The notes under the pieces: generated by a model | Databases searched by the model: none | What the model saw: the letters and a program-made list of their open reading frames with translations, nothing else | Told to the model about the DNA's origin: nothing | IMG/VR virus record: IMGVR_UViG_3300014720_000062 | Span: 1-42,015 of that record | Direction: 5' to 3' (one strand) | Length of the DNA: 42,015 bases | Source of the DNA: a virus | Part shown: positions 5,651-24,616 of the stretch, piece by piece | How the letters are laid out: each line of letters opens with the position of its first letter | Numbering within the stretch: position 1 is the first letter of the stretch | Translations under genes and position numbers: made by a program

Positions 5651-5651
5651 G

Positions 5652-8175: not shown

Positions 8176-8218
8176 GCTAGGGCGCCGTCAGCCGGGCTTC
8201 ACGAGGGAAGCCCTTCCC
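8176..8218 (-). promoter_or_regulatory. Left late promoter with Mor/C-type operator
   Basis: Read on the minus strand: dyad GGGAAG-GG-CTTCCC (8218..8205), 23 bp, then CCTAGC (8181..8176). The same arrangement with the same spacing occurs before the rightward late operon (21544..21586), and the shared block extends on both sides (ACCGC before, TCGTGAA after). If CCTAGC is the -10 box, the dyad is at about -49 to -36, the place used by Mor and C at Mu promoters, which also lack a good -35. No other copy was found in the window. Confidence 0.8.
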
Positions 8219-8230
8219 CGGCGGTTTGCT

Positions 8231-8410
8231 TCACGTGGAACGGGCGGCGTTTCGCCGCCGCGGCGGTCCGGCACCCGGTTTCCAAGACCGGCGCGGCTCG
8301 CGTTCCGCGCGGCCAGAGAAGATGAACCACGCTCCCCACAGCAACGCACCGGGAAGCCCAACACAAAACAACAGGATGCCGAGGATCGTGAGGACGGTGT
8401 CGGGGTTCAT
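8231..8410 (-). CDS. Small membrane protein at the end of the early operon
   Basis: A 59-residue protein with one strong membrane helix (VLTILGILLFCVGLPGALLW) and a very basic, Arg/Pro-rich C-terminal tail. I chose the ATG at 8410; a TTG at 8428 would add six residues. It lies between the Mor-type gene and the left late promoter. Function unknown. Confidence 0.55.
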   Translation of the reverse strand: MNPDTVLTILGILLFCVGLPGALLWGAWFIFSGRAEREPRRSWKPGAGPPRRRNAARST

Positions 8411-8438
8411 CAAGCTCAAGCCTATCAAGTTTCGAAGC

Positions 8439-8849
8439 CTAGTCGAACAGCGGCCCGGGGCCTTGCCGCCGCGCCTTGCGCACCATCCTCACCCATCGCC
8501 GCGTGCACTGGAACTCGCGCGCGACCTGGTTGTGGCTGCCGGGATGCTCCTGGATGGCGCGCATGCGGGCGGCGGCTTCCATGCGCCGGCCGAGCGCCGT
8601 CGGCACCTCGATGTTGCTGCCGCCGTAGAGCCGGCTCAGCACGGCGGCGATCTCGCGGCCGAGCGCCAGCAGGAGCGGTGATCGCTTGCGCGGCCGCACC
8701 GGGACCGTGACCTGCAGGCCGCCGAAATGGTGCATCAGCTTCTCCGCCGCCTCGAAGCCCAGCTCCTCGGCCAGCGCCCGGGCGGCGCCGCGCAGCAGGG
8801 CCATGCGCGGATCGGGGCGGGGATCGGGTCGGGGATCGGGCGCCGTCAT
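8439..8849 (-). CDS. Mor/C-family late transcription activator
   Basis: A 136-residue protein with the two parts of Mor: an N-terminal dimerisation region (LAEELGFEAAEKLMHHFGGLQVTVP) and a C-terminal helix-turn-helix (GSHNQVAREFQCTRRWVRMV). Mor and C dimers bind dyads upstream of promoters lacking a -35 box and recruit RNA polymerase. This is the only member in the window and is near the end of the early operon, so it probably serves the role of both Mor and C and acts on the matching late promoters. It overlaps the preceding stop (ATGA). The N-terminus has three PDPR repeats. Confidence 0.85.
   Translation of the reverse strand: MTAPDPRPDPRPDPRMALLRGAARALAEELGFEAAEKLMHHFGGLQVTVPVRPRKRSPLLLALGREIAAVLSRLYGGSNIEVPTALGRRMEAAARMRAIQEHPGSHNQVAREFQCTRRWVRMVRKARRQGPGPLFD
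8809..8844. repeat. Three 12-bp tandem repeats at the 5' end of the Mor-type gene
   Basis: GGATCGGGNCGG occurs three times head to tail, the last copy with a diverged end. It encodes the PDPR repeats before the conserved Mor core. As 12 is a multiple of three, copy changes alter length but not frame. Confidence 0.8.
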
Positions 8850-9361
8850 GCTGGCCTCCCGAGCCGATGCAGGCGGTCGCGCAGCCGCACCTTGTGGACG
8901 ACCGGCAGCGAGCCGGCGAGCTCGTTGCAGCGGGCGTGGGCCAGCGCGCAGTTCTCCGCGCGCCGCGGGCCGTTCCAGGCGCGCGCCAGCAGCTCCTCGA
9001 TCGTGACGTCGTCGCCCAGCGGCCGGCCGCAGTAGAAGCAGTCGGGCCCGTCGCGCAGCCGCAGCTCCGCGCGCAGCCCGTCGAGCCCCTTGCCGGCGTG
9101 CCGCGACGCGCCGCCGAATGGCCGCCAGGCGCGCCCAGCCACGAAGGCCGCCGCCGCGGTGGCTACATCGGGCCCGCGGACACTGATGCCGCGCTTCTTC
9201 GATCGCGCGACCAGGTTCTTGCGGCCGTGCACGGCGAAGCGCAGCAGCTCGCCCGGCACCGGCGAGATCTCGTCGAGCAGCATGCAGCCGCTGTCGAGCA
9301 GGAACGCGCGGAACCGCTCAATCGCTGCCGGATCGTCGAACAGGGCATAGGCGCCGCTCAT
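8846..9361 (-). CDS. HNH-endonuclease-like protein, possibly without a catalytic His
   Basis: A 171-residue protein. The C-terminal part has a zinc knuckle (CFYCGRPL) and the second half of an HNH fold (ENCALAHARCNELAG). The segment VTIEELLARAW aligns with TIEHLL of related phage proteins as I recall them, so the first His of HNH appears to be Glu. The N-terminal half (about 1-90) is an unknown domain. The protein may be an inactive nuclease that binds DNA, or the family may use another residue. Confidence 0.65.
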   Translation of the reverse strand: MSGAYALFDDPAAIERFRAFLLDSGCMLLDEISPVPGELLRFAVHGRKNLVARSKKRGISVRGPDVATAAAAFVAGRAWRPFGGASRHAGKGLDGLRAELRLRDGPDCFYCGRPLGDDVTIEELLARAWNGPRRAENCALAHARCNELAGSLPVVHKVRLRDRLHRLGRPA

Positions 9362-9380
9362 GCCGCGCGCGGCTCGCCGG

Positions 9381-10022
9381 TCATCGCCGCCGAGCCTCCC
9401 GGCTCGCGTGCCGCAGCTTCGCCAGCGCGAGGATCGCCTCGCGCACCTCGGGCGCGGCCGCCGAGTAGTCGAAGCCGCGGTGGCCGTTGAGATACGGCAG
9501 CGCCGCGCGCGGCATGAGCGTCCAGTTCGACGGATCGGTGTTCTGCCTGTCGTTGTCGAGGCACTTCAGGAACATGCCGGGCGGCACGGGACCGTTGGCC
9601 TTCTCCCAAAGCCAGCGGTGCTTCAGCACGTAGCGCCGCTCGAAGCCCGTGTGCGGGTTGGTCTGGTCGACGCTGATCTCGACAAAGCCGTCCTGCGACA
9701 GTCGCTCGTGCCCGAGATACTTCGTGTTGTGCGGCAGGTTGCCCTTCCTGAACTGCGTCCTGCGGGAATTCGGATGCCGCCCGCCCCGGCCCGGCGCGCA
9801 CTTCACGCCCTTGTTCGCCGGCACGATGCCCTTCTCGAACCGCCCGGTCTGCCCGGTCTTCCAGCCCTTGCGCTTGCGCAGCGAATGGAGGTGCACTGCC
9901 GTCACGTCGCCCCGCCGGAAGCGCGCGCGAAAGGCGCGGAGATAGTCGGCGATCGGCAAGGTCCGGTTGTCCTCCAGCCACGCCAGCTCGGCAGCGCTGT
10001 AGGCGATGCGCCTGCTCTTCAC
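9381..10022 (-). CDS. HNH-type DNA-binding/endonuclease protein
   Basis: A 213-residue protein starting at a GTG that overlaps the preceding TGA. The N-terminus (SAAELAWLEDNRTLPIADYL) is a Myb/SANT-like helix-turn-helix, the middle is basic (RKGWKTGQTGRFEKGIVPANKG), and the C-terminal part has the HNH_3 layout HRWLWEKANGPVP...CLDND...TDPSNW. The usual HH pair of this motif reads KC here. Proteins of this type are common in early regions of Mu-like phages. The role is unproven. Confidence 0.7.
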   Translation of the reverse strand: MKSRRIAYSAAELAWLEDNRTLPIADYLRAFRARFRRGDVTAVHLHSLRKRKGWKTGQTGRFEKGIVPANKGVKCAPGRGGRHPNSRRTQFRKGNLPHNTKYLGHERLSQDGFVEISVDQTNPHTGFERRYVLKHRWLWEKANGPVPPGMFLKCLDNDRQNTDPSNWTLMPRAALPYLNGHRGFDYSAAAPEVREAILALAKLRHASREARRR

Positions 10023-10297
10023 CTGGCGCCTCCATCCTCGGCGTCCTGGGACGGCAACGCCGGCGCCTGCTTGAACACCTGCGACAGCATCGGCTTGATC
10101 TTGTCGCCGTGGTTGGCGACCAGCGTCGCCGCCTTCAACGCCGTGTCGGCGTTGCGGATGATCTGCTCGCTGACCGCCACGACGGCGTCGGCGCGCTTGA
10201 CCTCCCGCTCGATCTGCTCGGCCGACAGGCCTTCCTCGGTGAGCCTTTCGAGCTCGGCGAACAGGTGGTTGTTGAGATCGATCAATCTGTTCTTCAT
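10019..10297 (-). CDS. Conserved early protein with long helices
   Basis: A 92-residue, mostly helical protein (MKNRLIDLNNHLFAELERLTEEGL, in part). It resembles a small protein often found next to the HNH gene in Mu-like phages; no function is known to me. It is translationally coupled to the HNH gene by a 4-bp overlap. Confidence 0.7.
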   Translation of the reverse strand: MKNRLIDLNNHLFAELERLTEEGLSAEQIEREVKRADAVVAVSEQIIRNADTALKAATLVANHGDKIKPMLSQVFKQAPALPSQDAEDGGAR

Positions 10298-10330
10298 TTC
10301 GGACTCCGTCGTGGGTGAATGCCCGGCCGA

Positions 10331-10642
10331 TCAGACGGCCATCGCGGCCACGCGCGCGATGCGCTTGGCCGCCGTGAAGTGCTCCTCGATCTCCTGGGCG
10401 GTGAAGCCGCCGCCCTTGAGATCGTCGATGGTGATGCAGCCGGTCGCCGCCACGGTGCGGGCGATCAGCTCGGCCATGCGCGCCCGCACCAGCGTGCGCG
10501 GCTCGGGATCGGGCAGCTTCATGAAGGGCGCGAGGCCTGCCGGCACGATCGGCCGCACGACGCTGCCGGTGACCTGGTCGAGCAGGTGGCCGTCGATTGG
10601 CGTCGAGGGTGGCTTCGGCGGCGGCTTCAGGTAGACGACCAT
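10331..10642 (-). CDS. Early hypothetical protein with helix-turn-helix-like C-terminus
   Basis: A 103-residue protein with a Pro-rich start (MVVYLKPPPKPPSTP). The C-terminal half (TGCITIDDLKGGGFTAQEIEEHFTAAKRIA) has the spacing of a helix-turn-helix. The ATG overlaps the preceding stop as ATGA, which fixes the start. Not otherwise recognised. Confidence 0.65.
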   Translation of the reverse strand: MVVYLKPPPKPPSTPIDGHLLDQVTGSVVRPIVPAGLAPFMKLPDPEPRTLVRARMAELIARTVAATGCITIDDLKGGGFTAQEIEEHFTAAKRIARVAAMAV

Positions 10643-10989
10643 CAGGCGGCCTCCCCGAGCGGCAGCGTGCAGGGGCTCCGCCGCCGGCGCCGCGCCGACG
10701 GCTTGCCGTCGATCGGCCATCGATGGCCACGCGCGAAGATCTCGACGCCGGCGGTCGGGTGCCTTCGCAGCCACCTGATGAAGGCCTCCAGGGCGTCGAG
10801 GCCCCGCGCCTGGTCGGGCGCTTCGGGCACGCCCGGCACGAGCAGCGTCGTGCCGTCGTAGGCATGACGCGAAGTGCCATCGATGAGGTCCCGAAGGCGC
10901 TTCGACCGGCCGCGCGCGATCGGCAGCGCGCCCTTCGGGACCGAGCGGCCGAAGCCGATGCGGCCGGTGGCCCAGCAGTAGGCGTACAT
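10642..10989 (-). CDS. Early hypothetical protein
   Basis: A 115-residue protein (MYAYCWATGRIGFGRSVPKGALPIARG) similar in type to small phage host-takeover proteins of Mu-like phages. It keeps ATGA overlaps with both neighbours. The C-terminus is Arg-rich (SARRRRRSPC), suggesting nucleic acid contact. Function unknown. Confidence 0.65.
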   Translation of the reverse strand: MYAYCWATGRIGFGRSVPKGALPIARGRSKRLRDLIDGTSRHAYDGTTLLVPGVPEAPDQARGLDALEAFIRWLRRHPTAGVEIFARGHRWPIDGKPSARRRRRSPCTLPLGEAA

Positions 10990-11228
10990 CACGCCACCTC
11001 CGTGAAGGTGCCGTCTTCGTGCGCGCGATAGCCGCCGCAGGTGTTCACGCCGACCAGCAGCATGGAGCTGAGGCGATGCGCGTCCTCGTAGGAGATGTCG
11101 TCGCCTAGGTCGCAAACGAGATTTCCGTTGGCGTCGACGATCTTCCAGGGGAAGTCGCCCTCGATGTTCCAGGGCAACGGCCGGCCGGGGCACATGGCGG
11201 CGAACCGGCGCTGTGCTTCGGTTGCCAT
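10989..11228 (-). CDS. Early hypothetical protein
   Basis: A 79-residue protein containing GRPLPWNIEGDFPWKIVDANG and a repeated acidic/aromatic pattern. The ATG overlaps the stop of the GapR-like gene (TGATG); a GTG one codon earlier is possible. No family recognised. Confidence 0.6.
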   Translation of the reverse strand: MATEAQRRFAAMCPGRPLPWNIEGDFPWKIVDANGNLVCDLGDDISYEDAHRLSSMLLVGVNTCGGYRAHEDGTFTEVA

Positions 11229-11494
11229 CACACCATCCCCAGCGCGTGCTTGTAGGTGTCGAGCAGCGTCTCGGCTTCCGACCGATCGGCCGCATCCATC
11301 GACCGGAGCGACACGATCTTGCGCATGGTCTTGACGTCGTAGCCGACGCCCTTGGCCTCGCTGTAGACGTCCTTGATGTCGCCGCCGAGCGCCTTGCGCT
11401 CTTCCTCGAGCTTCTCGATCCGCTCGATGAACGACTTGAGGCGATCGGCCGAGATCGGGCCGGCCTTGGTCTTCTTGCTCACTGCTTCGGGCAT
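11228..11494 (-). CDS. GapR-like DUF2312 protein
   Basis: An 88-residue protein that is a clear DUF2312 member: the helices RLKSFIERIEKLEEERKALGGDIKDVYSEAKGVGYDVKTMRKIV (seen in successive pieces) match the family signature. GapR of Caulobacter is a tetrameric clamp that binds AT-rich, overtwisted DNA and aids replication elongation. A phage copy beside GemA suggests a role in DNA topology or takeover of host replication during replicative transposition; that link is inference. Confidence 0.88.
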   Translation of the reverse strand: MPEAVSKKTKAGPISADRLKSFIERIEKLEEERKALGGDIKDVYSEAKGVGYDVKTMRKIVSLRSMDAADRSEAETLLDTYKHALGMV

Positions 11495-11495
11495 T

Positions 11496-12125
11496 TCATG
11501 CTCCTTCGGTTTGAGAGGGTGACTTGTGGCGATGGCCGAGTTTCAGCCTGCGCAGTGCGCTGCCCGCGAGATTGGCCACGTCTCGCTGGCGGGCTTCGGT
11601 TTCCCTGCCGCAGTTGGACAGGGTGGAGATGTAGCCATCGACCGAGCCGCAGCCCTGGTCGCGGCATGCGAGCAGCCGGCGAAGCTGCTCGGCGATGACG
11701 GCACGCACGCCGTTGCCCTCGGCGCCGACGCGCTGGCACCACGCCTTGAGCGCCTCGACCACCTTCCCGGCCTCGCCGTTCGTGCAGAAGCGCAGCGTGT
11801 CCTTGCCGGTCGTGCGCCTGGTGAAGGCGTCGAGCGCCTTGTCGCGGCGGTCGGCGACCTCGTCGAGCTGCCACAGCGAGATCCACAGCGCCCGCGCCTT
11901 CTGGACGATCGGCCGACGATCGCCGGCCGTGCCCTTCGCCTTGTCGGTCCGCGTGAAGCCGTGGTTGTCGAACCACAGCATGACGCGCCGCGCGCCGGCC
12001 TCGTCGAGGTCGCGCGCGCTCGCCACGCCCGCCTCGCGCTTCAGCATCGCGCGATAGTCGTCGTCGTCGAGATCGAGCTGCTTCTTGGCGACGTGGATGG
12101 CGGCCAGGGTCCGGCGGTCGAGCAT
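11496..12125 (-). CDS. gemA: GemA regulatory protein, Mu gp16-like (DUF1018)
   Basis: A 209-residue DUF1018 protein. The start RRTLAAIHVAKKQLDLDDDDYRAML is the family signature, followed by the paired WISLWQLDEVADRRDKALDAF block. In Mu, GemA alters host gene expression through DNA supercoiling and cell-division genes. Its place between early genes fits. The ATG overlaps the preceding stop by one base. Confidence 0.85.
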   Translation of the reverse strand: MLDRRTLAAIHVAKKQLDLDDDDYRAMLKREAGVASARDLDEAGARRVMLWFDNHGFTRTDKAKGTAGDRRPIVQKARALWISLWQLDEVADRRDKALDAFTRRTTGKDTLRFCTNGEAGKVVEALKAWCQRVGAEGNGVRAVIAEQLRRLLACRDQGCGSVDGYISTLSNCGRETEARQRDVANLAGSALRRLKLGHRHKSPSQTEGA

Positions 12126-12400
12126 CAGCCGCCCTCCCGCACGTCGTTGAAGGCCTCGACCATCGCCGGCCAGTCGAGGCCGATCTCGCGGAAGTGCCGC
12201 ACGATCGCCTTGAACGTGTCGGCGTCGACGCGAACCGCGCCGGCGGCCGCGTCGACCGCGATCACCTCCAGGACGGCGGCGCGCAGCTCGGCGACCGCGT
12301 CGCGGAGCTGCTCGCGCTGGCGGTTGTTGCCGGCGAAGCGCATCAGCTCGCGGCTCTTGCAGTCGACCTCGAGGAAGGCGCCTAGGAGAGGGTGCGTCAT
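12125..12400 (-). CDS. Early hypothetical protein, helical
   Basis: A 91-residue protein with a central helix (NNRQREQLRDAVAELRAAVLEVIAVD) and a C-terminal segment ending in WPAMVEAFNDVREGG. The start is set by an ATGA overlap with the upstream gene. No family recognised. Confidence 0.6.
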   Translation of the reverse strand: MTHPLLGAFLEVDCKSRELMRFAGNNRQREQLRDAVAELRAAVLEVIAVDAAAGAVRVDADTFKAIVRHFREIGLDWPAMVEAFNDVREGG

Positions 12401-12681
12401 TGCACGGGCCTCACTTCGTCGGTGGCGAAGGCGCGTGTGCCGAGCGCGTAGTGAAGCCTCGTCGAGACGAGCATGCCGACCGTGTTGCAGATGTCTTCCT
12501 CGGTCTGGCCGGGCGCAGCGCCGGCGACGATCATGCCGACCGCCAGTGCCGCCAGGACGTTGATGCGGGTCGAGAGCGCGGCGTCGACCGGCTCCATGGC
12601 GCGCAGCACTGCGACGGCGAAGGCGCGATGCTCCTCGTTCCACTCGGCGGGCAGCGGCACCTGCATGTGGCGGTAGGTCAT
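12397..12681 (-). CDS. Early hypothetical protein with hydrophobic middle
   Basis: A 94-residue protein. The middle (INVLAALAVGMIVAGAAPGQTEEDIC) is hydrophobic enough for a weak membrane segment but may be a buried helix. It overlaps both neighbours by 4 bp. Function unknown. Confidence 0.6.
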   Translation of the reverse strand: MTYRHMQVPLPAEWNEEHRAFAVAVLRAMEPVDAALSTRINVLAALAVGMIVAGAAPGQTEEDICNTVGMLVSTRLHYALGTRAFATDEVRPVQ

Positions 12682-12929
12682 GGCCGGCTCGCTTCGGCGG
12701 CATCCACCGCCGCCTGGCTGGCATCGAGATAGGCCTTGCGGGCCTCCAGCCGCGCGTGCGGCAGGGCCCGCGCGGCGAGCTTCGTGCGGTAGGCGCGCCA
12801 GCTCCGCACGACATGGGCCTGCAGTTGCCGTGGGACGCGGCTCCAGCAGCTCCGGCACATCAGGTGGCCGCGCTTCGCCGTGCCGCCGCAGAGGGGCACG
12901 GGGCATGGCGTGCTGACCGGCCGGCTCAT
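12678..12929 (-). CDS. Zinc-knuckle protein, copy A of a tandem pair
   Basis: An 83-residue protein with four cysteines in the pattern CPVPLCGG...MCRSCW, followed by a helical basic tail. The upstream neighbour has the same pattern (CPVLTCSG...MCMACW) at the same place, so the two look like a diverged tandem duplication. Probably a nucleic acid or protein binding module; function unknown. ATG overlaps the upstream stop (ATGA). Confidence 0.65.
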   Translation of the reverse strand: MSRPVSTPCPVPLCGGTAKRGHLMCRSCWSRVPRQLQAHVVRSWRAYRTKLAARALPHARLEARKAYLDASQAAVDAAEASRP

Positions 12930-13165
12930 GACCGCACCGTCGCGGCCGCGCGGCGCGCATTCGCGATCGCCGTCTCCAGCCGCTTCTTGTTGCGCGCGGT
13001 CGGCTGGCGTCGAACCGCCTTCATGCAGGTTTCGACGGCGACGCGCTGGTAGGTCGGCAGCGCCGCCCAGCAGGCCATGCACATGAAGCCGTTGATGCCG
13101 TCGGCCGACATCTCGCCGCTGCAGGTCAGGACCGGGCAGACGATGCGGGGTGCCGTCGGGTTCAC
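12926..13165 (-). CDS. Zinc-knuckle protein, copy B of a tandem pair
   Basis: A 79-residue protein starting at a GTG that overlaps the preceding TGA. It shares with copy A the order CPV-x2-C-x-G, an MC-x2-CW knuckle, then a Leu/Val-Pro and a basic helical tail rich in Arg/Lys. The spacing between the cysteine pairs is longer than in copy A. Confidence 0.65.
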   Translation of the reverse strand: MNPTAPRIVCPVLTCSGEMSADGINGFMCMACWAALPTYQRVAVETCMKAVRRQPTARNKKRLETAIANARRAAATVRS

Positions 13166-13566
13166 GACCGGCCCTCCAGGCGCTTGCGCAGATCGTTCGC
13201 GAGGTTCTGTCGGCCGAGGCTGGGGGTCGCCAGCTCGAGCGCGATGTCGGACACCAGCGCCTGCATGTCGGGCGTCAGCGACTTCATCGCCGTCACGGTC
13301 GCGTTGAGGCTCGGCTCCTGGAGGAGCTGCAGGCTCTTGATCGCCTGCCCGAGCGTGCGGAGCTGGTCGCCGGCGCTGCCCTGCTTCAGGCGCCCGCCGG
13401 CGATCCAGCCGGGATAGAGCCGCTCGCGCATCGCCAGCTCGCGCTGCAGCTCGCGGACCTGGCTGGCCAGCGCGCCGGGGGCCAGCAGCTTGGCGGCCGG
13501 CGTGCGGCCGGGCGCCGGCGTGGTGCTGCCGTCCTGATGGACGAAGGGCTTCTGGTCTTCGGGCAT
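13162..13566 (-). CDS. Early hypothetical protein
   Basis: A 134-residue protein with a polar N-terminus (MPEDQKPFVHQDGSTTPAPG) and a helical remainder (ALASQVRELQRELAMRERLY). No family recognised. It is separated from the next upstream gene by 57 bp, one of the few gaps in this operon, and no promoter was found there. Confidence 0.55.
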   Translation of the reverse strand: MPEDQKPFVHQDGSTTPAPGRTPAAKLLAPGALASQVRELQRELAMRERLYPGWIAGGRLKQGSAGDQLRTLGQAIKSLQLLQEPSLNATVTAMKSLTPDMQALVSDIALELATPSLGRQNLANDLRKRLEGRS

Positions 13567-13623
13567 GGTTGCCTCGTTTGTGAGAGGGGGACGCGGTACG
13601 CGGACGCGACGAACTGCCGGCGG

Positions 13624-13824
13624 TCACTCCGCCGGCAGGAACTGGTCGAAGAATTTCGGGACGAGCTCGCTGTCGATCGCGGCGCGCAGCGCGGCGGCCG
13701 ACATGGGCGTGGCGACGGCATAGGCGAAGCCGTCGCGCACGCCATCGTTGCGATGGGGCACCTTGATCGAGATCTGCACGATCGTGCCGGCGGGGACGGT
13801 GCCCAGGAGCGGGGCGAGCGCCAT
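13624..13824 (-). CDS. Small early hypothetical protein
   Basis: A 66-residue protein (MALAPLLGTVPAGTIVQISIKVPHRNDGV in part). The beta-rich start and helical end FFDQFLPAE give no family. Its ATG shares one base with the preceding stop. Confidence 0.5.
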   Translation of the reverse strand: MALAPLLGTVPAGTIVQISIKVPHRNDGVRDGFAYAVATPMSAAALRAAIDSELVPKFFDQFLPAE

Positions 13825-14231
13825 CAGTGCACCGCCCGAGGCGCGGCCACCTCGCCCAGCATGCCGAGCGCCTTGTCGACCAGGCGCATCGTGGAGCCGA
13901 CGATGTGGGGCATGTCGCGCGACCAGGCAGAGATCATCTCGTCGCGCTGGGCGGCGCGATGGAGGATGGCGCTGGCGGCATGAGCGAGCAGCTCGCCGTC
14001 GGGCAACATGACCTGCAGCAGCATCGTGAGCGGCGGGCCCGGCAGCAGGAGGTCGGGCAGCGCGGCTTGCTTAAACAGCGCCGGTAGCCGCTGCGCGATC
14101 TGCTCGGCAAGGAACCGCTCTCCCAGCGGGGACATGGCGACCAGGCGCGCAATCCCGATCCCGGTCGACGACGGCGCCGGCCGCATGACGGTGACGAACA
14201 GCGTGGAGCCCTGCGGCAAGGGGCGGCTCAT
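13824..14231 (-). CDS. Early hypothetical protein
   Basis: A 135-residue protein starting MSRPLPQGSTLFVTVMRPAP. The middle (LLLPGPPLTMLLQVMLPDGELLAHAASA) is hydrophobic but broken by prolines. It overlaps the TetR-like gene by 4 bp. No family recognised. Confidence 0.55.
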   Translation of the reverse strand: MSRPLPQGSTLFVTVMRPAPSSTGIGIARLVAMSPLGERFLAEQIAQRLPALFKQAALPDLLLPGPPLTMLLQVMLPDGELLAHAASAILHRAAQRDEMISAWSRDMPHIVGSTMRLVDKALGMLGEVAAPRAVH

Positions 14232-14569
14232 GTGCTGAGCCTCCCGAACACGGCGGCGCGCACGATGCGGCTGCAATCCTCGGCGCAGGGCCACGGGCCG
14301 TTCGGCATGATGCGGGCGAGGATCATCGCCTGCGTCGTGTCGTCGAGCGCCAGCTCCCAGGCGTGCGCGGTGCTCTCGAAGTGATTGTAGAACGAGCGGC
14401 AGGTGACGCCGGCGAGGCCGGCGATCTTCTCGGCGCGCGGCTGGAACTCGCCGCGGGCCATCAGGGACCGGACGGCCTGCAGGATCGCGGCGTGGCTGCG
14501 ATCGTAGGCGAGGTTGTGGCGCCGTGTCGGCGCGGCGTCGTCGATCGACGCGAGGGCGATGCTGGTCAC
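14228..14569 (-). CDS. Short TetR-type DNA-binding protein
   Basis: A 113-residue protein consisting almost only of a TetR N-terminal domain: YDRSHAAILQAVRSLMARGEF, then the helix-turn-helix AEKIAGLAGVTCRSFYNHF (about 46-64). Full TetR regulators have about 200 residues with a ligand-binding domain, which is missing. It may regulate phage or host promoters without an effector. Confidence 0.7.
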   Translation of the reverse strand: MTSIALASIDDAAPTRRHNLAYDRSHAAILQAVRSLMARGEFQPRAEKIAGLAGVTCRSFYNHFESTAHAWELALDDTTQAMILARIMPNGPWPCAEDCSRIVRAAVFGRLST

Positions 14570-14581
14570 GGGTCGGGCCTC

Positions 14582-14728
14582 CTAGTGCTTGATGAAGTCG
14601 AGGGGAGCGCCGCGGCCGGCCGCGGCCGTGCTGACGGCGATGTGGACGCCCAGCCGCTCGGCGTGCGCGAGCGGCAGGCGGCGTGGGCGCGCGAACAGCC
14701 GCGCGACCAGGTCGAGGAGGCGTCTCAC
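14582..14728 (-). CDS. Possible 48-residue early protein
   Basis: An open frame starting at a GTG that overlaps the upstream TGA, the same coupling used by other genes here. The product (VRRLLDLVARLFARPRRLPLA, in part) begins with an amphipathic basic helix. Coding is plausible from the overlap and tight packing but unproven. Confidence 0.4.
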   Translation of the reverse strand: MRRLLDLVARLFARPRRLPLAHAERLGVHIAVSTAAAGRGAPLDFIKH

Positions 14729-15009
14729 GGCCGCCTCCCGCGCCAGCGGCCGATGTGGACCACGACGCGGCCGGCCGCCGGCTCCTCGGCCTCGAGCTGC
14801 TGGTAGAGGATCGCGGCCGCGGTGGCGGCGCCGTACATCGGCACGATCTCGGGCCGGCGCCGGCGCGCGTCCTCCATCGCCTCGGCGAAGTCGCGCGTGC
14901 GTTCGAGCAGCTCGCGATGCGAGGACAGCACCTCGAGGAGCTGCTCGTAGGTCGGTTCGGGATGGGCATCGAGCGCCGCGAGCGCGGCGCTGCACTGAGC
15001 TGACAACAT
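14725..15009 (-). CDS. Early hypothetical protein
   Basis: A 94-residue protein with a long helix (YEQLLEVLSSHRELLERTRDFAEAM) and a C-terminal basic end. No family recognised. Confidence 0.55.
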   Translation of the reverse strand: MLSAQCSAALAALDAHPEPTYEQLLEVLSSHRELLERTRDFAEAMEDARRRRPEIVPMYGAATAAAILYQQLEAEEPAAGRVVVHIGRWRGRRP

Positions 15010-15015
15010 GACGGG

Positions 15016-15429
15016 TCACTCCCTCGGGCTGGAGGTGTCGGGTTTCGGATGCGGCGACGAGGACGGGGACGGCCGCGTGCGCTTGTGGGGACAGGTCGGG
15101 CAGCTCCGGTGGAGCTGCACGCGGACGGGATTGGCGGCCGAGAACGGCCGCTTCTGGTTCTCGAGGCAGAGATCCACGCCGATCTCGCCCAGCACCGGGC
15201 AGACGACGGTGGTGCCCATCAGGGCGCCGCGCACCTTCTGCTCGACGTTGCCGAGCCGCGCCTTGTATCTGCGCCGCACGACTTCGTTGATCGTGGTCTT
15301 GGAGACGCCGATGCGGCGCGCCGTGGCGCCCTGGCCGCCGCGGTCGCATTCGTCGGCCAGCGCGACGATCCAGTCCGGGATCGCCTCGCCCCACGCCTTG
15401 TGGGCCTCGTCGAGAGTGTGGCGGCTCAT
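15016..15429 (-). CDS. HTH protein with C-terminal cysteine motif
   Basis: A 137-residue protein. Residues about 30-55 (GGQGATARRIGVSKTTINEVVRRRYK) form a helix-turn-helix; the C-terminal part has CPVLGEIGVDLCLENQKRPF and a CPTCPHK knuckle. This combination recurs in early regions of Mu-like phages. A regulator is likely, target unknown. ATG overlaps the upstream stop. Confidence 0.65.
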   Translation of the reverse strand: MSRHTLDEAHKAWGEAIPDWIVALADECDRGGQGATARRIGVSKTTINEVVRRRYKARLGNVEQKVRGALMGTTVVCPVLGEIGVDLCLENQKRPFSAANPVRVQLHRSCPTCPHKRTRPSPSSSPHPKPDTSSPRE

Positions 15430-15827
15430 CGCGCCGCCTTTCGCGCCGGCGGCGCGAGCTGCAGCTTGTTCAGCCAGTTGGCGCGGCGGCCGATCGGCGG
15501 CGGCGCGCCGCCGTCGACGCCCACCACCTGGCGCAGGTTGCGGTCGACCGCGGCCGTCAGGCGCTTGCCCTTCATGATGAAGAGCGGCGGCTTCGGGCCG
15601 CTGTCGCGGATCAGGCGCCACGTGCACTCGTGGTAGCCGACGCGCTCGTCGTCGGCACGCACGTAGCCAGTGCGGCTTAGGAACCGCAGCTCGCGCTGCA
15701 CCGTGTTCTTCGGCCGGCCGGTGACGGCGACCAGGTGCTGCGTCGTGGCGCTGCGCAGGATCCTGAGGGTCTGCCACAGGATCTCGCGCTGGCGCGGCAC
15801 GCGCGGCGGCTTCAGGGGTCCGCTCAT
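15426..15827 (-). CDS. Winged-helix early protein
   Basis: A 133-residue protein. Residues about 13-70 read as a winged helix: REILWQTLRILRSATTQHLVA, recognition region GRPKNTVQRELRFLSRTGYV, then a wing. It is encoded directly after MuB. Related proteins next to MuB occur in other transposable phages; function unknown. Confidence 0.62.
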   Translation of the reverse strand: MSGPLKPPRVPRQREILWQTLRILRSATTQHLVAVTGRPKNTVQRELRFLSRTGYVRADDERVGYHECTWRLIRDSGPKPPLFIMKGKRLTAAVDRNLRQVVGVDGGAPPPIGRRANWLNKLQLAPPARKAAR

Positions 15828-15837
15828 GGTGCGGGCC

Positions 15838-16623
15838 TCAGGAGCCCAGCGCGTGGCTGGCGAGCTTGTTGGCGCGGGCGATGCCCGCCTCCATCATGTG
15901 CAGCGGCTGCTTGCCCCACTCGGCCTCGCCGACCTTCTTCAGGTTGCGCTTCAGCGCAAACTGCTCGATGCGGGCGAGGCCGACCCGGACCAGGCGCGCG
16001 CTGCCCTCCGAGGCCTCGTGCAGGCGCTTCAGCAGCGCGTCGTCGATCTCGGGGAGCATCGCCTGCGGCTTGCGGTCGTCGGCCAGCAGGTGCTTCGCCA
16101 GGAGGTGCGTGTCGTCGAGGTCGAGCGGCTTGAACTCCAGCTCGAAGGCGACGCGGCCGCTGAACTGGCGCTGGTCGATGCGGGTGCGCAGCTTCTTCAC
16201 GAAGTCGGCCATGCCGACCAGGATCACCGGCATGGTGCTGAGGTCGTGCAAGTCGCGCAGCGTGTTCAGGAGCCGCTTGCTGTCGACCACGTAGTCGGCC
16301 TCGTCGACGATCAGGATGCGGTTCTGCCGCACCAGCTCGCCGACGATGCGGGTCAGCGTCTTGGCCAGCGAGCGGTCGGGCTGCACGTCCAGCTCGCCGG
16401 CGATCGTCTCCAGCATGGTGAGCGGCGACCAGAGCTGCAGGGCGCGGACGTAGACGGCGCGCTCCTGGCGCACGCCGTACCAGGCGAGCCCGGTGGTCTT
16501 GCCGTAGCCGGTCTCGCCGAACACCACGCCGATGCCGGGCGTCGACAGGCTACGATCTTTCAGCGACTCGCCGAGCTCGGCGAGGCGCAGCAGGTTCTTG
16601 ACGGGGGCGATGACGTCTTTCAT
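15838..16623 (-). CDS. MuB-like transposition ATPase
   Basis: A 261-residue AAA+ ATPase. Walker A is GETGYGKT (36-43), Walker B is ILIVDEAD (103-110), with sensor-type residues in VILVGMAD. MuB coats target DNA, delivers it to the transpososome and gives target immunity. It is shorter than Mu MuB (312) and lacks the N-terminal helix-turn-helix domain, closer to the TniB/ExeA-like form. An 85-bp gap separates it from MuA with no gene inside. Confidence 0.9.
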   Translation of the reverse strand: MKDVIAPVKNLLRLAELGESLKDRSLSTPGIGVVFGETGYGKTTGLAWYGVRQERAVYVRALQLWSPLTMLETIAGELDVQPDRSLAKTLTRIVGELVRQNRILIVDEADYVVDSKRLLNTLRDLHDLSTMPVILVGMADFVKKLRTRIDQRQFSGRVAFELEFKPLDLDDTHLLAKHLLADDRKPQAMLPEIDDALLKRLHEASEGSARLVRVGLARIEQFALKRNLKKVGEAEWGKQPLHMMEAGIARANKLASHALGS

Positions 16624-16708
16624 TTTGGTATCTCACTCTTCGTTGCGAGTTGCCGGAGCCGGTCGGTGTTGCAAGCGCCGCCGGCTCTTCTCGTGTTTGG
16701 CGCGGCCT

Positions 16709-19021
16709 TCAGCCCGCGCTGTCCTCCTCGACCATGCGATGGGCTTTCCATTCGCCGGTGGTCGGGTAGATCTGCAGCCAGTGGCGGTCGTCGGCGGCGA
16801 TCTCCGCGCCGGCGTCGGCCTCTTCCTTCAAGAGCTTCCAGCGCGCGTAGCGCTCGTGCGGCTGTTCCTCAGGCAGCGCCGGCGCGTCGAACGCGGCGAC
16901 GAAGGCGGCGTGACGTTCCTGCTCCTCGGGCGTGGCCTCCGGGATCTCGCGGCGGCCCTGCGAGCGGACGGCGCGCGCCGCCTCCTCGAGGGCGGGCGTC
17001 AGCCAGGTCACGTTCGAGCTGGGGGCGGCGGGCGGCGGCGCTTCGCCGATCATGCGGGCCGCCACGGCGTGGACGTCGGCCTGGCGCGCGAAGCGGCGCA
17101 GCTCGGCCTTCCCGGCCTTCACGATCGCGTCCTGCTCGGCGCGCACCCGCATCGCCATCTCGGCGCGGTCGAGGCCCTTCAGCTCGGCGTTGACGGCGAT
17201 GCCGACGAAGGCCCAGGGATCGCTGTCGGTGTAGACCCAGACCTGGCCGAGATCGTCGGGATCGAGCCGGACCTGCACGCGCTCGCCGACATCCATGCCG
17301 GCGCAGACATAGTCGATGCCCTCGACCGAGACGCCCTTGCGCGTGATCGTGCGGACGTGGTCGCGCGCCGGCGGCATCAGCAGCATGCCGATCGCCGCCG
17401 GGTCGGCGAATTTCTGCGGATGGGCCGCCACGCCCTCGACCCACACGTCGTGCGGCGTGCGGCCGTCGAGCCCGGCATGCGGCGAGACGTCGTAGTCGTT
17501 GGCGATCCAGCCGGCCAGGCGGGCCTGCAGCTCCTCGCCGGTAAGGTCGACGGCGAACACCTTCTCGTCGCTCTCGCCCAGGCGCTGGGCGAAGGAACGC
17601 CGCGCCTCGATCTCCTTGCGGGCCGCCACGTCGGGCCCGACGTAGCCCGGCTGGTAGGGCATGAAGCCGTGCTGCACGGTGCCGATGGCGCGCTCGACGA
17701 ACGGCTTCTTCTCCGGCGAGTAGGGCGGCGTCGGCTGCAGCACGATCTCGAGCTGCGTCATGGCGAGGACGAAGTGCTTCGACGTGAAGTCGGAGCCGTT
17801 GTCGGTGACCAGCACCTCGGGCACGCCCCACGTGGCGATCGCGCGGGCGACCAGGAGCAGCGAGGCCGCGGTGCGCGGCGTGCGCGAGACCAGCGCCATC
17901 ATGCGGCGCGAGAAGACGTCGACGACGACGTAGATCGAATGGCGGCCGTCGAGACAGAGCACGTCGGCCGGCGAGGCGTCGATCTGCCAGCGCTGGTTCG
18001 GCCGCTCGATGCCGCCCGAGGCGTTGCCGAGCGCGAACCGGAACTTGGAGCGGTAGCCGTCGGGATCGTTGAGCGCCGACAGCACGGCGGCGTTCTGCGC
18101 GTCGGCCTTCCACTTCGCGAGGAAGCGCGCGATCGCGCCCTGCGACGGCAGCGCCATCATGAGCCCGAGGCGGTCCGGCGCGCCCTGGGGGAACTTGTGC
18201 GCGACCAGCTTGGCGAGGCCCTGGGCGCTGATCGCCGGCTGGCGGACGTGGCAGCCCAGCACGAACTCGGCCAGCTCGGCCGACTGGTCGAACACGGACT
18301 TTCGACCGCAGTTCGAATATCGGTCGACCAGCTCGTGGGCGCGGCCGGCGGCGCGCGCGGCGAGCCAGCGCTGAAGCGTGCGGCGGCTGAGCCTGGCGAG
18401 CAGCGGCCGCGCCCACTCCGGCAGCACGACGTGCCCGGCCTTCACCGCCTGCACGAAGGGATCGAGCGACGCGCGATCGGAGCGTCCGCCCCGGAAGCGG
18501 TCGAACTCGGCGAGCAGAACCTGACGGGCGCTCAGCCGCTCGGCCTGCCGCGCCTTGAGAGTGGAAGCGACGGTGGCGGGGATGGGGGCGGGCACGGCCG
18601 CGCGATTGGCGGGGCTGGCGGCAGAACGATCGGCGGGACGGTGCGTCGCCGCGATGACGCGCCGGCGCAGGATCTCGCCGCGCACGTCGGCCGGCAGGGC
18701 GGAGAGGGCGAACTCGCGGCCGCCGCCGCGGCCCTGCCGCTCGCGGCTCGACCAGCGCTGCCGCGTCGCCAGCTTGGAGATCTGTTCGCGCCGCTGCGGC
18801 AGCCCGTCGAGCCTGAGCGCGGCCAGCTCGGCCGCCGAAAAAAAGTCGGCCCCGACATCGACCATCTCGCCTCGGTGATCGCCGGGGGCGGGTACGCGGT
18901 CGGTGTCGGGGCCAGTCGATCCGATCGCCGAGGGGATGGCTGGCGATCGGGAGGCTGCGTCGCCGGAGAGGGAGGTCTTCGGCGCGGGCTGCAGCGAACG
19001 GGTTGAAAGTCGGCGGGCCAT
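16709..19021 (-). CDS. MuA-like DDE transposase
   Basis: A 770-residue transposase. The N-terminal winged-helix enhancer-binding domain spans about 58-115 (FSAAELAALRLDGLPQRREQ). End-binding helical domains follow (about 160-310). The RNase H catalytic core shows D348 (WQIDAS), D407 (VTDNGSDF) and E443 (KPFVERAIG), a DD35E set. The C-terminal part (from about 560) fits the MuB/ClpX-contact region. It cuts and joins the phage ends. I start at the ATG at 19021, which overlaps the ner stop (TGATG). About 100 residues longer than Mu MuA. Confidence 0.95.
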   Translation of the reverse strand: MARRLSTRSLQPAPKTSLSGDAASRSPAIPSAIGSTGPDTDRVPAPGDHRGEMVDVGADFFSAAELAALRLDGLPQRREQISKLATRQRWSSRERQGRGGGREFALSALPADVRGEILRRRVIAATHRPADRSAASPANRAAVPAPIPATVASTLKARQAERLSARQVLLAEFDRFRGGRSDRASLDPFVQAVKAGHVVLPEWARPLLARLSRRTLQRWLAARAAGRAHELVDRYSNCGRKSVFDQSAELAEFVLGCHVRQPAISAQGLAKLVAHKFPQGAPDRLGLMMALPSQGAIARFLAKWKADAQNAAVLSALNDPDGYRSKFRFALGNASGGIERPNQRWQIDASPADVLCLDGRHSIYVVVDVFSRRMMALVSRTPRTAASLLLVARAIATWGVPEVLVTDNGSDFTSKHFVLAMTQLEIVLQPTPPYSPEKKPFVERAIGTVQHGFMPYQPGYVGPDVAARKEIEARRSFAQRLGESDEKVFAVDLTGEELQARLAGWIANDYDVSPHAGLDGRTPHDVWVEGVAAHPQKFADPAAIGMLLMPPARDHVRTITRKGVSVEGIDYVCAGMDVGERVQVRLDPDDLGQVWVYTDSDPWAFVGIAVNAELKGLDRAEMAMRVRAEQDAIVKAGKAELRRFARQADVHAVAARMIGEAPPPAAPSSNVTWLTPALEEAARAVRSQGRREIPEATPEEQERHAAFVAAFDAPALPEEQPHERYARWKLLKEEADAGAEIAADDRHWLQIYPTTGEWKAHRMVEEDSAG

Positions 19022-19353
19022 CACGCGGCCCGCTCGTGGGGATTGGTGCGGGAAGCGGGGATAGTCTCAGAGGGGCCGCAATCGTTCCTTCTGGACTCCT
19101 TCTTGCCGCCGCGTTTAATCGGCACGTCTTGGCGGTCGTAGCGGGGGGGCCAGATCACATGGGCCGGAACGCCGATCGTGCGGGCGATGATCCGTTCGAC
19201 CTTGGGCCAACGCTTCACCAGGCAGACGCTCACGGCCGACGGCGAGAGATTGTGGCGTATCGACAGCCCTCGTTGCGTGAAGCCCTTGCGCTTCAACGCG
19301 GCGACGATGTCGGCCTTGTGCATTCCCTTCGGAGGTTTGGACCCGCTTTGCAT
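19021..19353 (-). CDS. ner: Ner-like transcriptional repressor
   Basis: A 110-residue protein with the Ner/Nlp signature: MHKADIVAALKRKGFTQRGL, then LSPSAVSVCLVKRWPKVERIIARTIGV and PPRYDR. In Mu, Ner turns down the early and repressor promoters. It is longer than Mu Ner (75) because of a basic C-terminal tail. It is the first gene of the leftward early operon. A start at Met11 is possible. Confidence 0.88.
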   Translation of the reverse strand: MQSGSKPPKGMHKADIVAALKRKGFTQRGLSIRHNLSPSAVSVCLVKRWPKVERIIARTIGVPAHVIWPPRYDRQDVPIKRGGKKESRRNDCGPSETIPASRTNPHERAA

Positions 19354-19369
19354 TCCAGCTCGGCTCGCT

Positions 19370-19405: not shown

Positions 19406-19420
19406 TGTCGGCCTTGTCAA
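19391..19420 (-). promoter_or_regulatory. Early promoter (leftward)
   Basis: On the minus strand a perfect TTGACA (19420..19415) is followed after 18 bp by TAGCGT (19396..19391). The -10 box lies inside the 36-bp dyad, so a bound repressor would block it. It would drive ner, A, B and the rest of the early operon down to the Mor-type gene. Confidence 0.65.
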
Positions 19421-19484
19421 CTCATATATGCGGTTTCAACCCGCTCAAGAGCGGTCCCGCGGATCAAATAAGCGGGGCGTCCTG

Positions 19485-20237
19485 ATGGCTCCACGCCCCA
19501 AGGATGTCGACCTGCGCCTCGCGCCATTGGCTGAGGGTTTCGGCAACAGGGTGAATGTTGCAGCGTTGCGCATTGGCACGCGGCCCGAGGCGGCGGCGGC
19601 GATGGGCCTGTCCGACGATCAGCTCGGTCGCATCATCAAGGAGAAGGCCGTGCCGACGCTGCCGGCGATCGCGGGCCTCGCCAAGGCAAGCGGCTGCACG
19701 CTGGAGTGGCTGGCGTTCGACCAGGGCTCGCAGTTTGCCGAGACGTCGTTCGCCGTGCCGATCGTCGCCAAGGTCGCAGCGAAGGTGATGGCGACCACCA
19801 ACTACGACAGCGTGCTCGCCGACACCGTGCTTGTGCCGCGCTACGACGTGCGGTTCTCGGCCGGGCCCGGCGCGTCGGGCGGCGACGACCGGATCGTGGC
19901 GACGCTGCCCTTCTCGCGGCGCTATCTCGAAGGCGTGCTGCGCTGCGCGCTCGACGACGTGGCGATCGGCGAGGCCGACGGCGACTCGATGGAACCGACG
20001 ATCGGCGACGGCGACCTGCTCATGGTGCACCTGAAGCGCAAGCGGATCTCGGACGGGCACATCTTCGTGCTGCGGCTCGCCGACGAGCTGGTGGTGAAGC
20101 GCGTGCAGCGCGAGCTCGACGGCTCGCTGATCCTGATGAGCGACAACAAGGCCTATGCCGATCGGCGGCTGACCCAGGCCGAGGCCGACCAGGTCGACGT
20201 CATCGGCCGGCTGATCTGGAGCGGCGGGCCGGTCTAG
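19485..20237 (+). CDS. Lysogeny repressor, HTH plus S24 (LexA/CI-like) peptidase
   Basis: A 250-residue protein from the ATG at 19485 (an in-frame ATG at 19428 would add 19 residues but lies in the promoter region). The N-terminal helix-turn-helix spans about 20-60 (PEAAAAMGLSDDQLGRIIKEK). The C-terminal S24 domain has the nucleophile S168 in GDSMEPT and the general base K205 in ELVVKRV. A possible self-cleavage pair is A126-G127. This predicts SOS-linked induction, unlike the Clp-degraded Mu repressor. It is divergent from ner, and its stop shares a CTAG with the converging gene. Confidence 0.88.
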   Translation: MAPRPKDVDLRLAPLAEGFGNRVNVAALRIGTRPEAAAAMGLSDDQLGRIIKEKAVPTLPAIAGLAKASGCTLEWLAFDQGSQFAETSFAVPIVAKVAAKVMATTNYDSVLADTVLVPRYDVRFSAGPGASGGDDRIVATLPFSRRYLEGVLRCALDDVAIGEADGDSMEPTIGDGDLLMVHLKRKRISDGHIFVLRLADELVVKRVQRELDGSLILMSDNKAYADRRLTQAEADQVDVIGRLIWSGGPV

Positions 20238-20833
20238 CGCGCGCGTGCCCGCGCCGCGGCATCCTTCAGCCACCCGGGCTGCGTCATGTCGCTGAAGCGC
20301 GCGCCGAATGTCGGGACGTTGAACTCGGCGCCCGGCGAGGAGACACCTTCGGCATAGCCTCGCCGCTCGTCGATCATGAGCGAGCCGCTCGCGACCACGG
20401 CATCGTCGAACCGCATCGTGCGCAGGAGGTCGACGACGGCGCCGGGCTCCGGGGGGATGGCCGTATCGGCGATGTTCGTGAAGAGCGGCTTCGCGCCGTT
20501 GGCCACGGCGGCGAGCAACGTGTAGACGCGCCGGCGATCGTCGGACGGCCGCGCGAGCTGCACGACGAACACCCATCTCGAGAAGATCCCGGACGGACCC
20601 AGCACGCGTCGCAGCTCACGGCCGCGCTCGACCACCAGGCGATCGAGCGTCGCCTGGTCGGCGTGCTTGAAGGCGAGGGCGGCGTAGCGCTCGATCACGT
20701 CCGTGAACTCGCGTTGCGCGACGGGGATGGCCTCGGGCGGCGGCGCCAGCCGCGCCCATGACCTGGTCGAGACGGCCATGGGCAGGGAGGCGAGGGCGCC
20801 GACCAGGGCACAGCGGCGGGATAGGGCGGCCAT
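20234..20833 (-). CDS. Exported protein of unknown function, probable lysogenic conversion gene
   Basis: A 199-residue protein with a signal peptide-like start (SRRCALVGALASLPMAVSTRSWA; the Arg pair could also suit Tat). The mature part has no domain I recognise. Its stop overlaps the repressor stop in a shared CTAG. With the lipoprotein gene 33 bp upstream it forms a leftward pair outside both late operons. Position beside the repressor suggests expression in the lysogen, which is inference. Confidence 0.6.
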   Translation of the reverse strand: MAALSRRCALVGALASLPMAVSTRSWARLAPPPEAIPVAQREFTDVIERYAALAFKHADQATLDRLVVERGRELRRVLGPSGIFSRWVFVVQLARPSDDRRRVYTLLAAVANGAKPLFTNIADTAIPPEPGAVVDLLRTMRFDDAVVASGSLMIDERRGYAEGVSSPGAEFNVPTFGARFSDMTQPGWLKDAAARARAR

Positions 20834-20866
20834 GGCGGCGAGTGTCGCGGGCCGCCGCGCCGGCGT

Positions 20867-21307
20867 CTAGCTCCCGGCGGCGCAGCGGTCGACGATCCCC
20901 TTCGCACCGGCATCGACGCCGCCCAGGTCGGCGACCAGCTTGCGCCGGCGCCACTCCACGATGCTGCCCGCGCCGTCGGCGCGCACCGTGTAGATGGCCA
21001 TGACGTCGGGCGTCGCCTTCGAGGCGATGACGATGGTCGCCGTCGACCTCTCCCGATCGAAGGTCGGGGTGGCGGCCCATTCCTGCGCCGAGCGCCGCGC
21101 GATGCAATTCGCCATCGGCTCCCAGGGAACGGCCTGGCGCTGGGTGAGCCGGACGGGTTGGGCCTCGACGTCGTCGATCGAGGTGCAGGCGCCGCTCGTC
21201 ACCGCGAGCGCGAGGGCGGCAAGGATCGCCGCGCGGCGGGACAGCCGGGGGGACAGCCAGGGGGACAGCCGGCAGGGCCGCCGGCAGGGCAGATGGGGAA
21301 GGCGCAT
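20867..21307 (-). CDS. Putative lipoprotein, probable lysogenic conversion gene
   Basis: A 146-residue protein. Basic N-terminus with repeats (PCRRPCRLSPWLSPRLSRR), hydrophobic stretch AAILAALALAV and a lipobox-like SGAC at about 38-41; the position -3 residue is Ser, not the usual Leu, so lipidation is likely but not certain. The mature part contains TIVIASKATPDVMAIYTV. The 5' coding DNA has short GGGGGACAGCC repeats. No family recognised. Confidence 0.6.
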   Translation of the reverse strand: MRLPHLPCRRPCRLSPWLSPRLSRRAAILAALALAVTSGACTSIDDVEAQPVRLTQRQAVPWEPMANCIARRSAQEWAATPTFDRERSTATIVIASKATPDVMAIYTVRADGAGSIVEWRRRKLVADLGGVDAGAKGIVDRCAAGS

Positions 21308-21333
21308 TCGGGCTCCTTTATTGCCGCCCGGTT

Positions 21334-21364
21334 GGGGCCGGGGCCGGGGCCGGGCGGGTGGGGG
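21334..21364 (+). other. G-rich tract, G-quadruplex candidate
   Basis: Several runs of three or four G (GGGGCCGGGGCCGGGGCC followed by GGGCGGG) with 1-2 base gaps, between the lipoprotein start and the rightward late promoter. The rest of 21308..21596 holds the late promoter and a direct repeat of TTCGAACGC (21483 and 21495) but no gene. Confidence 0.5.
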
Positions 21365-21543
21365 AAGCCTGAGTTTCGGGCCGCCCGGGCCGGCCGGTCC
21401 AGCCCGCCGCCTGGGGGTATCGGCCGATTTGGCCGTGGGGCGCCTGCAGGGGGGAAGACGGGCCGGGACTACCGGGAAATTCTTCGAACGCGTTTTCGAA
21501 CGCCCGCAGGGCCGGGGAAGGGCGGTTCGGGGGCGGACCGCAG

Positions 21544-21586
21544 GGGAAGCCCTTCCCTCGTGAACCGTTTCCGGCGCCGACCTAGC
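21544..21586 (+). promoter_or_regulatory. Right late promoter with Mor/C-type operator
   Basis: Dyad GGGAAG-CC-CTTCCC (21544..21557), 23 bp, then CCTAGC (21581..21586), matching the left late promoter in spacing and flanks. It should fire the capsid-tail operon when the Mor-type activator appears. The predicted transcription start falls almost on the ATG at 21597. Confidence 0.8.
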
Positions 21587-21596
21587 GTCCCCCGGC

Positions 21597-23251: not shown

Positions 23252-23300
23252 ACGGACCGGCGCCCCCTCCCCCCACGACTGACCACCAGGAGCACCACGC

Positions 23301-24332: not shown

Positions 24333-24344
24333 GAGGAGAAGACG

Positions 24345-24605: not shown

Positions 24606-24616
24606 GCATTCCCGGA

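Follow-up and report, generated by a model that had tools for sequence, protein, structure and literature searches.

The stretch of DNA analyzed here, 42,015 nt in length (hereafter the window, or G000 in comparisons), is IMG/VR record IMGVR_UViG_3300014720_000062, a Mu-like transposable phage in which Pfam recognized homologues of MuA, GemA, the Mu portal protein, Mu F, Mu I, and Mu T. A palindromic element occurs in it twice, once ahead of each of two late gene arms running in opposite directions. Sequence comparison indicates that the two copies in all likelihood supply operator and core for two late phage promoters, switched on by Mor, a Mor-family late activator encoded at 8439..8849 (minus strand).

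The twin element and its counterparts in related phages

The lysis-arm copy consists of the dyad GGGAAG-GG-CTTCCC (8205..8218, minus strand), a predicted Mor-type operator of what we call class I, and, 23 bp beyond it, the hexamer CCTAGC (8176..8181, minus strand), the presumed -10 of the lysis/terminase/portal operon. At the protease arm, the predicted class I operator is GGGAAG-CC-CTTCCC (21544..21557, plus strand) and the presumed -10 of the protease/capsid/tail operon is again CCTAGC (21581..21586, plus strand). The initial annotation had described the pattern GGGAAG-N2-CTTCCC-N23-CCTAGC as present only twice, with agreeing flanks and with each copy directly before the first gene of a late operon, and all three statements held. 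With both strands scanned, the pattern matched only at 8176..8218 (minus) and 21544..21586 (plus), each match having 23 bp where the search let the spacer range from 20 to 26; ACCGC(c/a)GG precedes and TCGTGAA follows the dyad in both copies; and CCTAGC-N28-ATG leads into the gene at 8147..7893 (minus), as CCTAGC-N10-ATG leads into that at 21597 (plus).

No match to the dyad-spacer-hexamer pattern was found in 100 dinucleotide shuffles of the window. The dyad alone, with up to two mismatches, had two extra weak sites (6625 and 28201; 1.73 expected), with no CTAG near either. A weight matrix trained on seven sites, including both window copies, scored those copies at 42.5 and 36.7 bits and the next-best place at 14.7 bits, so that no third window site of comparable strength emerged. 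When palindrome pairs were sought without reference to the motif, the twin pair shared the top rank in the window with a single GC-rich pair (35254/14617), and its counterpart in the related phage G002 stood alone in first place, with three shuffled windows giving 0, 0, and 2 pairs, every one weaker. In both window copies TCGTGA sits 17 bp before CCTAGC, matching TTGACA at three of six positions by eye. The gap from CCTAGC to ATG is 28 bases at the lysis arm, containing AGAGG, and 10 bases (21587..21596) at the protease arm; because this N10 recurs in five of six protease arms (N13 in G007), a near-leaderless protease mRNA is expected.

Relatives were gathered by protein searches with Mor, protease, MuA, major capsid protein, and terminase, which gave G001 (3300007013_000009, also locus L005), G002 (3300002461_000856), G003 (3300024514_000083), L037, L055, and L029, the last a contig of a Reyranella sp. 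metagenome-assembled genome (MAG). As a stand-in for the window's host genome we scanned G007, a 5.6-Mb Reyranella MAG in which phage sequence is divided between contigs C526 and C534; the two parts very probably form one prophage, because a 19-base end is common to both inside MuA (residues 1-72 and 68-768). With the protease as query at E 1e-40, 76 Reyranella-order genomes gave a match in G007 only, a MuA alignment search of genome contigs gave no match, and neither did a search of the phages collection with the Mor protein at E 0.01. A viral_contigs scan with GGGAAGNNCTTCCCTCNTGA, the hexamer omitted, returned eight contigs: two sisters of the window, G001, G002, and G003 (these three already seen before the scan), L017 and L022 (new from it), and L021, which is unrelated to the phage group formed by the other seven and had no match to 30 window proteins tested. 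All five non-sister contigs of the group carry NNTAGC at +23 (CCTAGC in three, CTTAGC in one, CATAGC in one), so the 23-bp spacing was kept in data independent of its proposal.

We then compared 14 promoters, six from protease arms and eight from lysis arms, the window included. This set omits the window sisters L003, L004, L006, and L007, contigs L034 and L035 (protease start off the contig), L021, the second dyad of L055, and the distant relatives L030, L039, L040, L041, L056, L057, and L058, whose protease or terminase is 27-49% identical (terminase identities of L055 are unreliable, given an in-frame stop). Near relatives without the class I dyad carry another palindrome at the corresponding place, and a dyad of one of three classes was present in 8/8 lysis and 6/6 protease arms. 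Class I, GGGAAG-N2-CTTCCC, is found at both arms of the window and of G002, at the protease arms of G001 and G003, and at the lysis arms of L017 and L022; class II, GGGRGAC-N3/4-GTCTCCC with a 21-bp spacer, at the lysis arms of G001, L055, and L062 and the protease arm of L037; and class III, GGGYGGC-N4-GCCACCC, also with a 21-bp spacer, at both arms of G007. In 11 of the 14 promoters the dyad center lies 30 bp from the hexamer; two promoters whose dyads have an odd length have 29.5 bp, and the remaining one has 31. The hexamer conforms to CNTA(G/T)C, with CCTAGC in ten and CTTAGC, CATAGC, CCTATC, or CGTAGC in the others. If the hexamer is assumed to span -12 to -7, the dyad center falls near -42.5, so that all 14 promoters have the Mor/C-type arrangement of a dyad near -43 with a -10 downstream, and the position claimed at the outset, that of Mor and C binding in Mu, agrees with the -43.5 of the Mu Mor site.

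In all three one-Mor phages seen on both arms, the two arms carry matching dyads; in the G007 prophage, GGGYGGCGCRCGCCACCCTGATTAG is common to both. Many copies elsewhere in the host genome had been named as a sign against the proposal. In the 5.6 Mb of G007, the MAG with the related prophage, the class III dyad with its hexamer occurred at two places, both in the prophage (control 0), and the dyad alone, with at most one mismatch, at seven. Operator class did not track neighboring genes: the proteases of G001 and L037 are 80% identical with classes I and II, compared with 62% for G001 and the window, both class I, and those of G002 (class I) and G007 (class III) are 82% identical. An extra perfect class II dyad, GGGAGACTGTGTCTCCC, lies just past the mor stop in L055 (5948-5964), 21 bp before CTTATT, and is possibly autoregulatory or part of an additional promoter.

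Mor and the operator classes

The 8439..8849 protein matched Pfam Mor (3.3e-11; 43.6 bits with a curated cut-off of 24.9) and PHROG 836, late transcriptional activator (9.9e-21), and in relatives the Pfam scores were likewise above 24.9 (G001-Mor2, 27.8; L055, 32; L062, 25.9; G007, 50.3). That the window encodes a single Mor/C-type protein was borne out by tblastn, in which four different Mor proteins matched only this gene. We infer the DNA-reading helix from the alignment and the helix-turn-helix (HTH) fold; its sequence is TRRWVRMVR in the window, G001-Mor1, and G002, RRTVQR in G001-Mor2, L055, and L062, and RRTIQR in G007. Helix type and operator class were concordant in all six Mor-bearing phages, one of 180 arrangements, a figure that overstates independence because the six phages are few and related. 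Phage L062 was identified through its lysis leader only, blind to the operator, and its helix and class then agreed. In G001, two tandem Mor paralogues (L005:10001-10372 and 10402-10809) are 80% and 45% identical to the window Mor, with class I at the protease arm, class II at the lysis arm, and no other copies within one mismatch; because there are two mor genes and one operator class per arm, the G001 arms may be served by separate activators.

Since the twins match, the class tracks the Mor helix and not the neighbors, two-Mor G001 has both classes, and L062 agreed, we concluded that Mor very probably acts as the common late activator. The proposal in the initial annotation, that Mor-type operators drive two divergent late operons, is thus supported by the constant distance from center to -10, the within-genome twins, and the tracking of the helix; its one-activator switch suits the window, with a single Mor, and fails as a universal rule in G001, with tandem mor genes and a different class per arm. 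Sequence, position, conservation, fixed geometry, within-genome matching, and co-variation with the Mor helix are thus observed, and from them we infer Mor binding, activation rather than repression, start sites, and timing. Early transcription from the ner side would run leftward and end with mor, after which a Mor dimer would bind the palindrome centered near -42.5 at both promoters, replacing a -35 element, and assist the host RNA polymerase in initiating at the CCTAGC -10. The lysis/packaging arm to the left and the protease/capsid/tail arm to the right would in this way be switched on, and a second, C-type activator would not be required.

Several observations weigh against this interpretation. 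At the G002 lysis arm the spacing is 24 bp and the dyad, GGGAACGCCTTCCC, is imperfect; the lysis dyad of G001 is flanked by CCTAGG at equal distance on the opposite side; and CCTAGC is a poor -10 compared with the usual consensus. Classes I-III were named once five of the six phages had been seen. Mu C was the first Foldseek match of the 8439..8849 protein, but with an E-value of 0.54; Z scores of 6.1-6.3 to Mu Mor/C, for the HTH part only, tied with those of unrelated HTH proteins such as DeoR (6.4); and among PDB sequences Mu Mor was matched at E 0.81, below haemoglobin at 0.05. Structure comparison thus neither helps nor hurts the Mor assignment. The palindrome-pair scan gave one weak pair each in phage B3 and L040 and none in L030, L056, and L057, and by this test the twin dyad is not general to Mor phages. 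Among distant relatives, the class I dyad was not found in L030, L039, L040, or L041, nor any of the classes in L030, L040, or L057.

Other functions for the dyads were also considered. They could be operators of a repressor, either the S24 repressor (19428..20237) or Ner, that silences both late arms in the lysogen while Mor acts elsewhere. Twin palindromes at promoters would be equally expected, and sites near -42 are repressive in some promoters. However, the repressor/ner control region, the expected location for an operator of a repressor, has no dyad copy with two or fewer mismatches, a center near -42.5 is the activator position of Mor/C, and the class follows the Mor helix in 6/6 phages, and we regard repression as very improbable. 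Binding by a different HTH protein, with the Mor agreement due to shared ancestry alone, would fit the small number of phages and the adjacency of mor to the lysis operator, which makes co-inheritance possible. The protease site of the window nevertheless lies 13 kb away and yet matches, the twins agree in 3/3 phages, G001 with its two Mors has two classes, and phage pairs with similar proteases differ in class, so that this explanation appears very improbable.

The dyads could also be transcription terminators or RNA hairpins closing the upstream unit: they are inverted repeats located between operons, and the phage RcapMu has an identical terminator-like hairpin and T run before both its endolysin and protease genes. 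None of the 14 dyads is directly followed by a T run by eye (the G007 protease arm has TTTT eight bases on), the fixed distance of 29.5-31 bp to the hexamer is not terminator-like, and sequence changes are common to both arms, all of which makes termination extremely improbable. Activation by Mor remains the reading that we favor, and it describes a compact late switch with one activator, two matched operators, and two strands. The phages also form a natural series in which operator and activator helix vary together at constant geometry, one phage having both versions, and because of this co-variation Mor-DNA specificity could be read from sequence.

A parS-like palindrome at the lysis promoters

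The initial annotation was right about the twin dyad of the lysis copy and overlooked a second palindrome beside it. This sequence, GTTCCACGTGAAGC (8228..8241, minus strand), differs from GTTTCACGTGAAAC by two mismatches, is the only window site with three or fewer, and has its center 23 bp upstream of that of the lysis Mor dyad. A GTTTCACGTGAAAC-like palindrome is present in 8/8 lysis arms, with 1, 1, 1, 2, 2, 2, 2, and 3 mismatches; the other sites are L013:21338-21351, L017:108-121, L022:569-582, L005:12573-12586, L055:6019-6032, L062:7328-7341, and L051:8602-8615 (minus). Its center is 23 bp upstream of the dyad center in the lysis arms and 22.5 in L055, where the dyad is of odd length and the mismatches number nine at offset -23 and two at the site's own position. 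None of the six protease arms has such a site within 60 bp upstream (best match with at least seven mismatches; 45 bp examined in L037). The per-position chance of a match is 8e-7 for two or fewer mismatches and 1.3e-5 for three or fewer; reversed-sequence controls gave 0 or 1 place per contig with up to three, and G001 has one more place with three mismatches, at 30121. No site with three or fewer mismatches was found in the distant relatives L030, L039, L040, L041, L056, L057, and L058.

We take GTTTCACGTGAAAC to be the chromosomal parS, in agreement with its parAB neighborhood. Places with 0-1 mismatch to it number three in the G007 genome, two of them perfect, in gidA/gidB beside parA and parB (identified by Pfam), and the third being the phage lysis promoter. 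Of 76 Reyranella-order genomes, 68 have exact copies, mostly two each and 25 in one, and none of the 76 reversed controls has any. Like these chromosomal sites, from which they are one to three bases off, the lysis-arm sites are palindromes; unlike them, they are inexact in 8/8 arms, keep a fixed phase to the Mor dyad, and do not lie near parAB; ParB binding to them is putative.

According to the account cited (PMC5521831), promoters next to parS3 and parS4 in Pseudomonas aeruginosa are repressed by ParB, and by this analogy a regulatory role of the parS-like site is possible. It would then be an additional input confined to the lysis arm, and a two-input gate can be imagined in which Mor activates both arms and host ParB restrains the lysis promoter. 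As transposition adds genomes with one site each, ParB would be titrated and lysis freed after the virion genes are on; lysis timing would then amount to copy number read through the host segregation machinery. We consider this gate unlikely. No phage copy is an exact parS and several differ in central bases, which argues against a regulatory role. It would be simpler for the site to offer the alpha subunit of the polymerase an A/T-rich contact upstream, as happens at the Mor-dependent Mu promoter Pm, although such a use would leave the palindrome unexplained. There was no ParB match among the 36 window stretches scanned, a subset of the open reading frames (ORFs; 30 with Pfam and 10 with PHROGs, six of these new). 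Among the literature matches listed, which support no claim of absence from print, none described a parS-like site at phage lysis promoters or a Reyranella Mu-like phage. The presence of the site at 8/8 lysis promoters raises the question of whether phages use host ParB to time lysis.

Gene arrangement and comparison with known late switches

The leftward early operon (11496..19353, minus strand) starts at ner (19353) with a Ner-like protein (19021; HTH_35), followed by the MuA transposase (16709), a MuB-like ATPase (15838; AAA_22 and TniB), and, farther on, GemA (11496), and mor (8849..8439) is its last recognized gene. The repressor c, an S24-peptidase/HTH protein by Pfam (19428..20237, plus strand), has the opposite orientation. 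Within the early operon lies a gene for a GapR-type DNA-binding protein (11228..11494, minus strand; Pfam 2.8e-33), a family of nucleoid proteins in Alphaproteobacteria.

Lysis, terminase, portal, and MuF genes run leftward from 8147 to 1049. The first encodes 84 residues, signal-peptide-like by eye, with no PHROG at 1e-3 (7893..8147, minus), and the second a lysozyme of glycosyl hydrolase family 108 (7373..7891, minus; 4.9e-25); the rest of this arm (1049..6191, minus) comprises the small (5652) and large (3917) terminase subunits, the Mu portal (2270), and a Mu F-like protein (1049), by Pfam and PHROG. The rightward structural arm begins with the Mu gene-I-type protease (21597..22805, plus; Pfam Mu-like_Pro 8.4e-52). 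It continues over 22838..37943 (plus), assigned by domain and PHROG matches and by conservation in G001 and G002, with a virion structural protein (22838), a Mu T-like major head protein (23301), a virion morphogenesis protein (25489), a minor tail protein (26648), the tape measure protein (28376), and further conserved tail-region ORFs. The late genes are thus split between MuF and the protease. G001 and G002 share this divided two-arm layout, and in the window, G001, G002, and G007 the block from lysis to MuF comes after mor, on the other arm. A tRNA-Arg (CCG) gene lies near the right end of the window (40394..40477, minus). At the left end, the window and its sister contig stop at an identical base (position 1 and L003:9365) and, read by eye without a search, the opening bases resemble a TrmL-type tRNA methyltransferase, so that this end may be a cut at the prophage-host boundary.

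As in B3, Fc02, and the Leptospira transposable prophages, two arms are transcribed apart from a central repressor, and the early arm ends, like that of B3 and Fc02, with a single annotated Mor, as far as the cited accounts go (PMC9936078, PMC8705779). In those accounts the right arm of B3 and Fc02 carries the genes for lysis, packaging, and the virion; in the window, by contrast, the lysis, terminase, portal, and MuF genes come after mor, on the left arm. TerS-TerL-portal is likewise split off in Leptospira TG1, but the Leptospira prophages are described there as being without Mor/C. None of the three dyad classes was found in B3 within one mismatch. Rhodobacter phage RcapMu and Rhodovulum phage RS1 resemble the window in that a single annotated late activator immediately precedes the endolysin gene and differ from it in that their late genes lie on one strand (two hypothetical genes excepted in RS1). 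Neither has a parS-like site with two or fewer mismatches; RS1 has one with three. The RcapMu (L069) hairpin, CCCCCGGACCTGTGTCCGGGGGTTTTGC, is identical at about 13946-13973 and 22367-22394, before the endolysin and protease genes.

The closest parallel is with Mu, in which the Mor site is centered at -43.5 and takes the place of a -35 (PMC4390567) and C serves the four late promoters lys, I, P, and mom (PMC4461284). Like Plys, PI, and the Mor-dependent Pm in the accounts cited (PMC4390567, PMC4461284, PMC4287176), the window promoters, known from their sequence, would combine a dyad near -43 in place of a -35, a weak -10, and a Mor/C-family dimer. Because the dyad position is near that of the Mor site and Mu C serves lys and I, the same two genes that follow the window sites, these sites probably correspond to Plys and PI. 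Unlike Mu, with its Mor-then-C cascade and four late promoters, the window has one Mor and two sites found, on opposite strands, and the palindromes of its group are longer and mostly perfect, at 14, 17, or 18 bp. Based on these comparisons, the twin element appears to be a real and conserved Mor-type operator pair and a variant of the Mu/B3 late switch.

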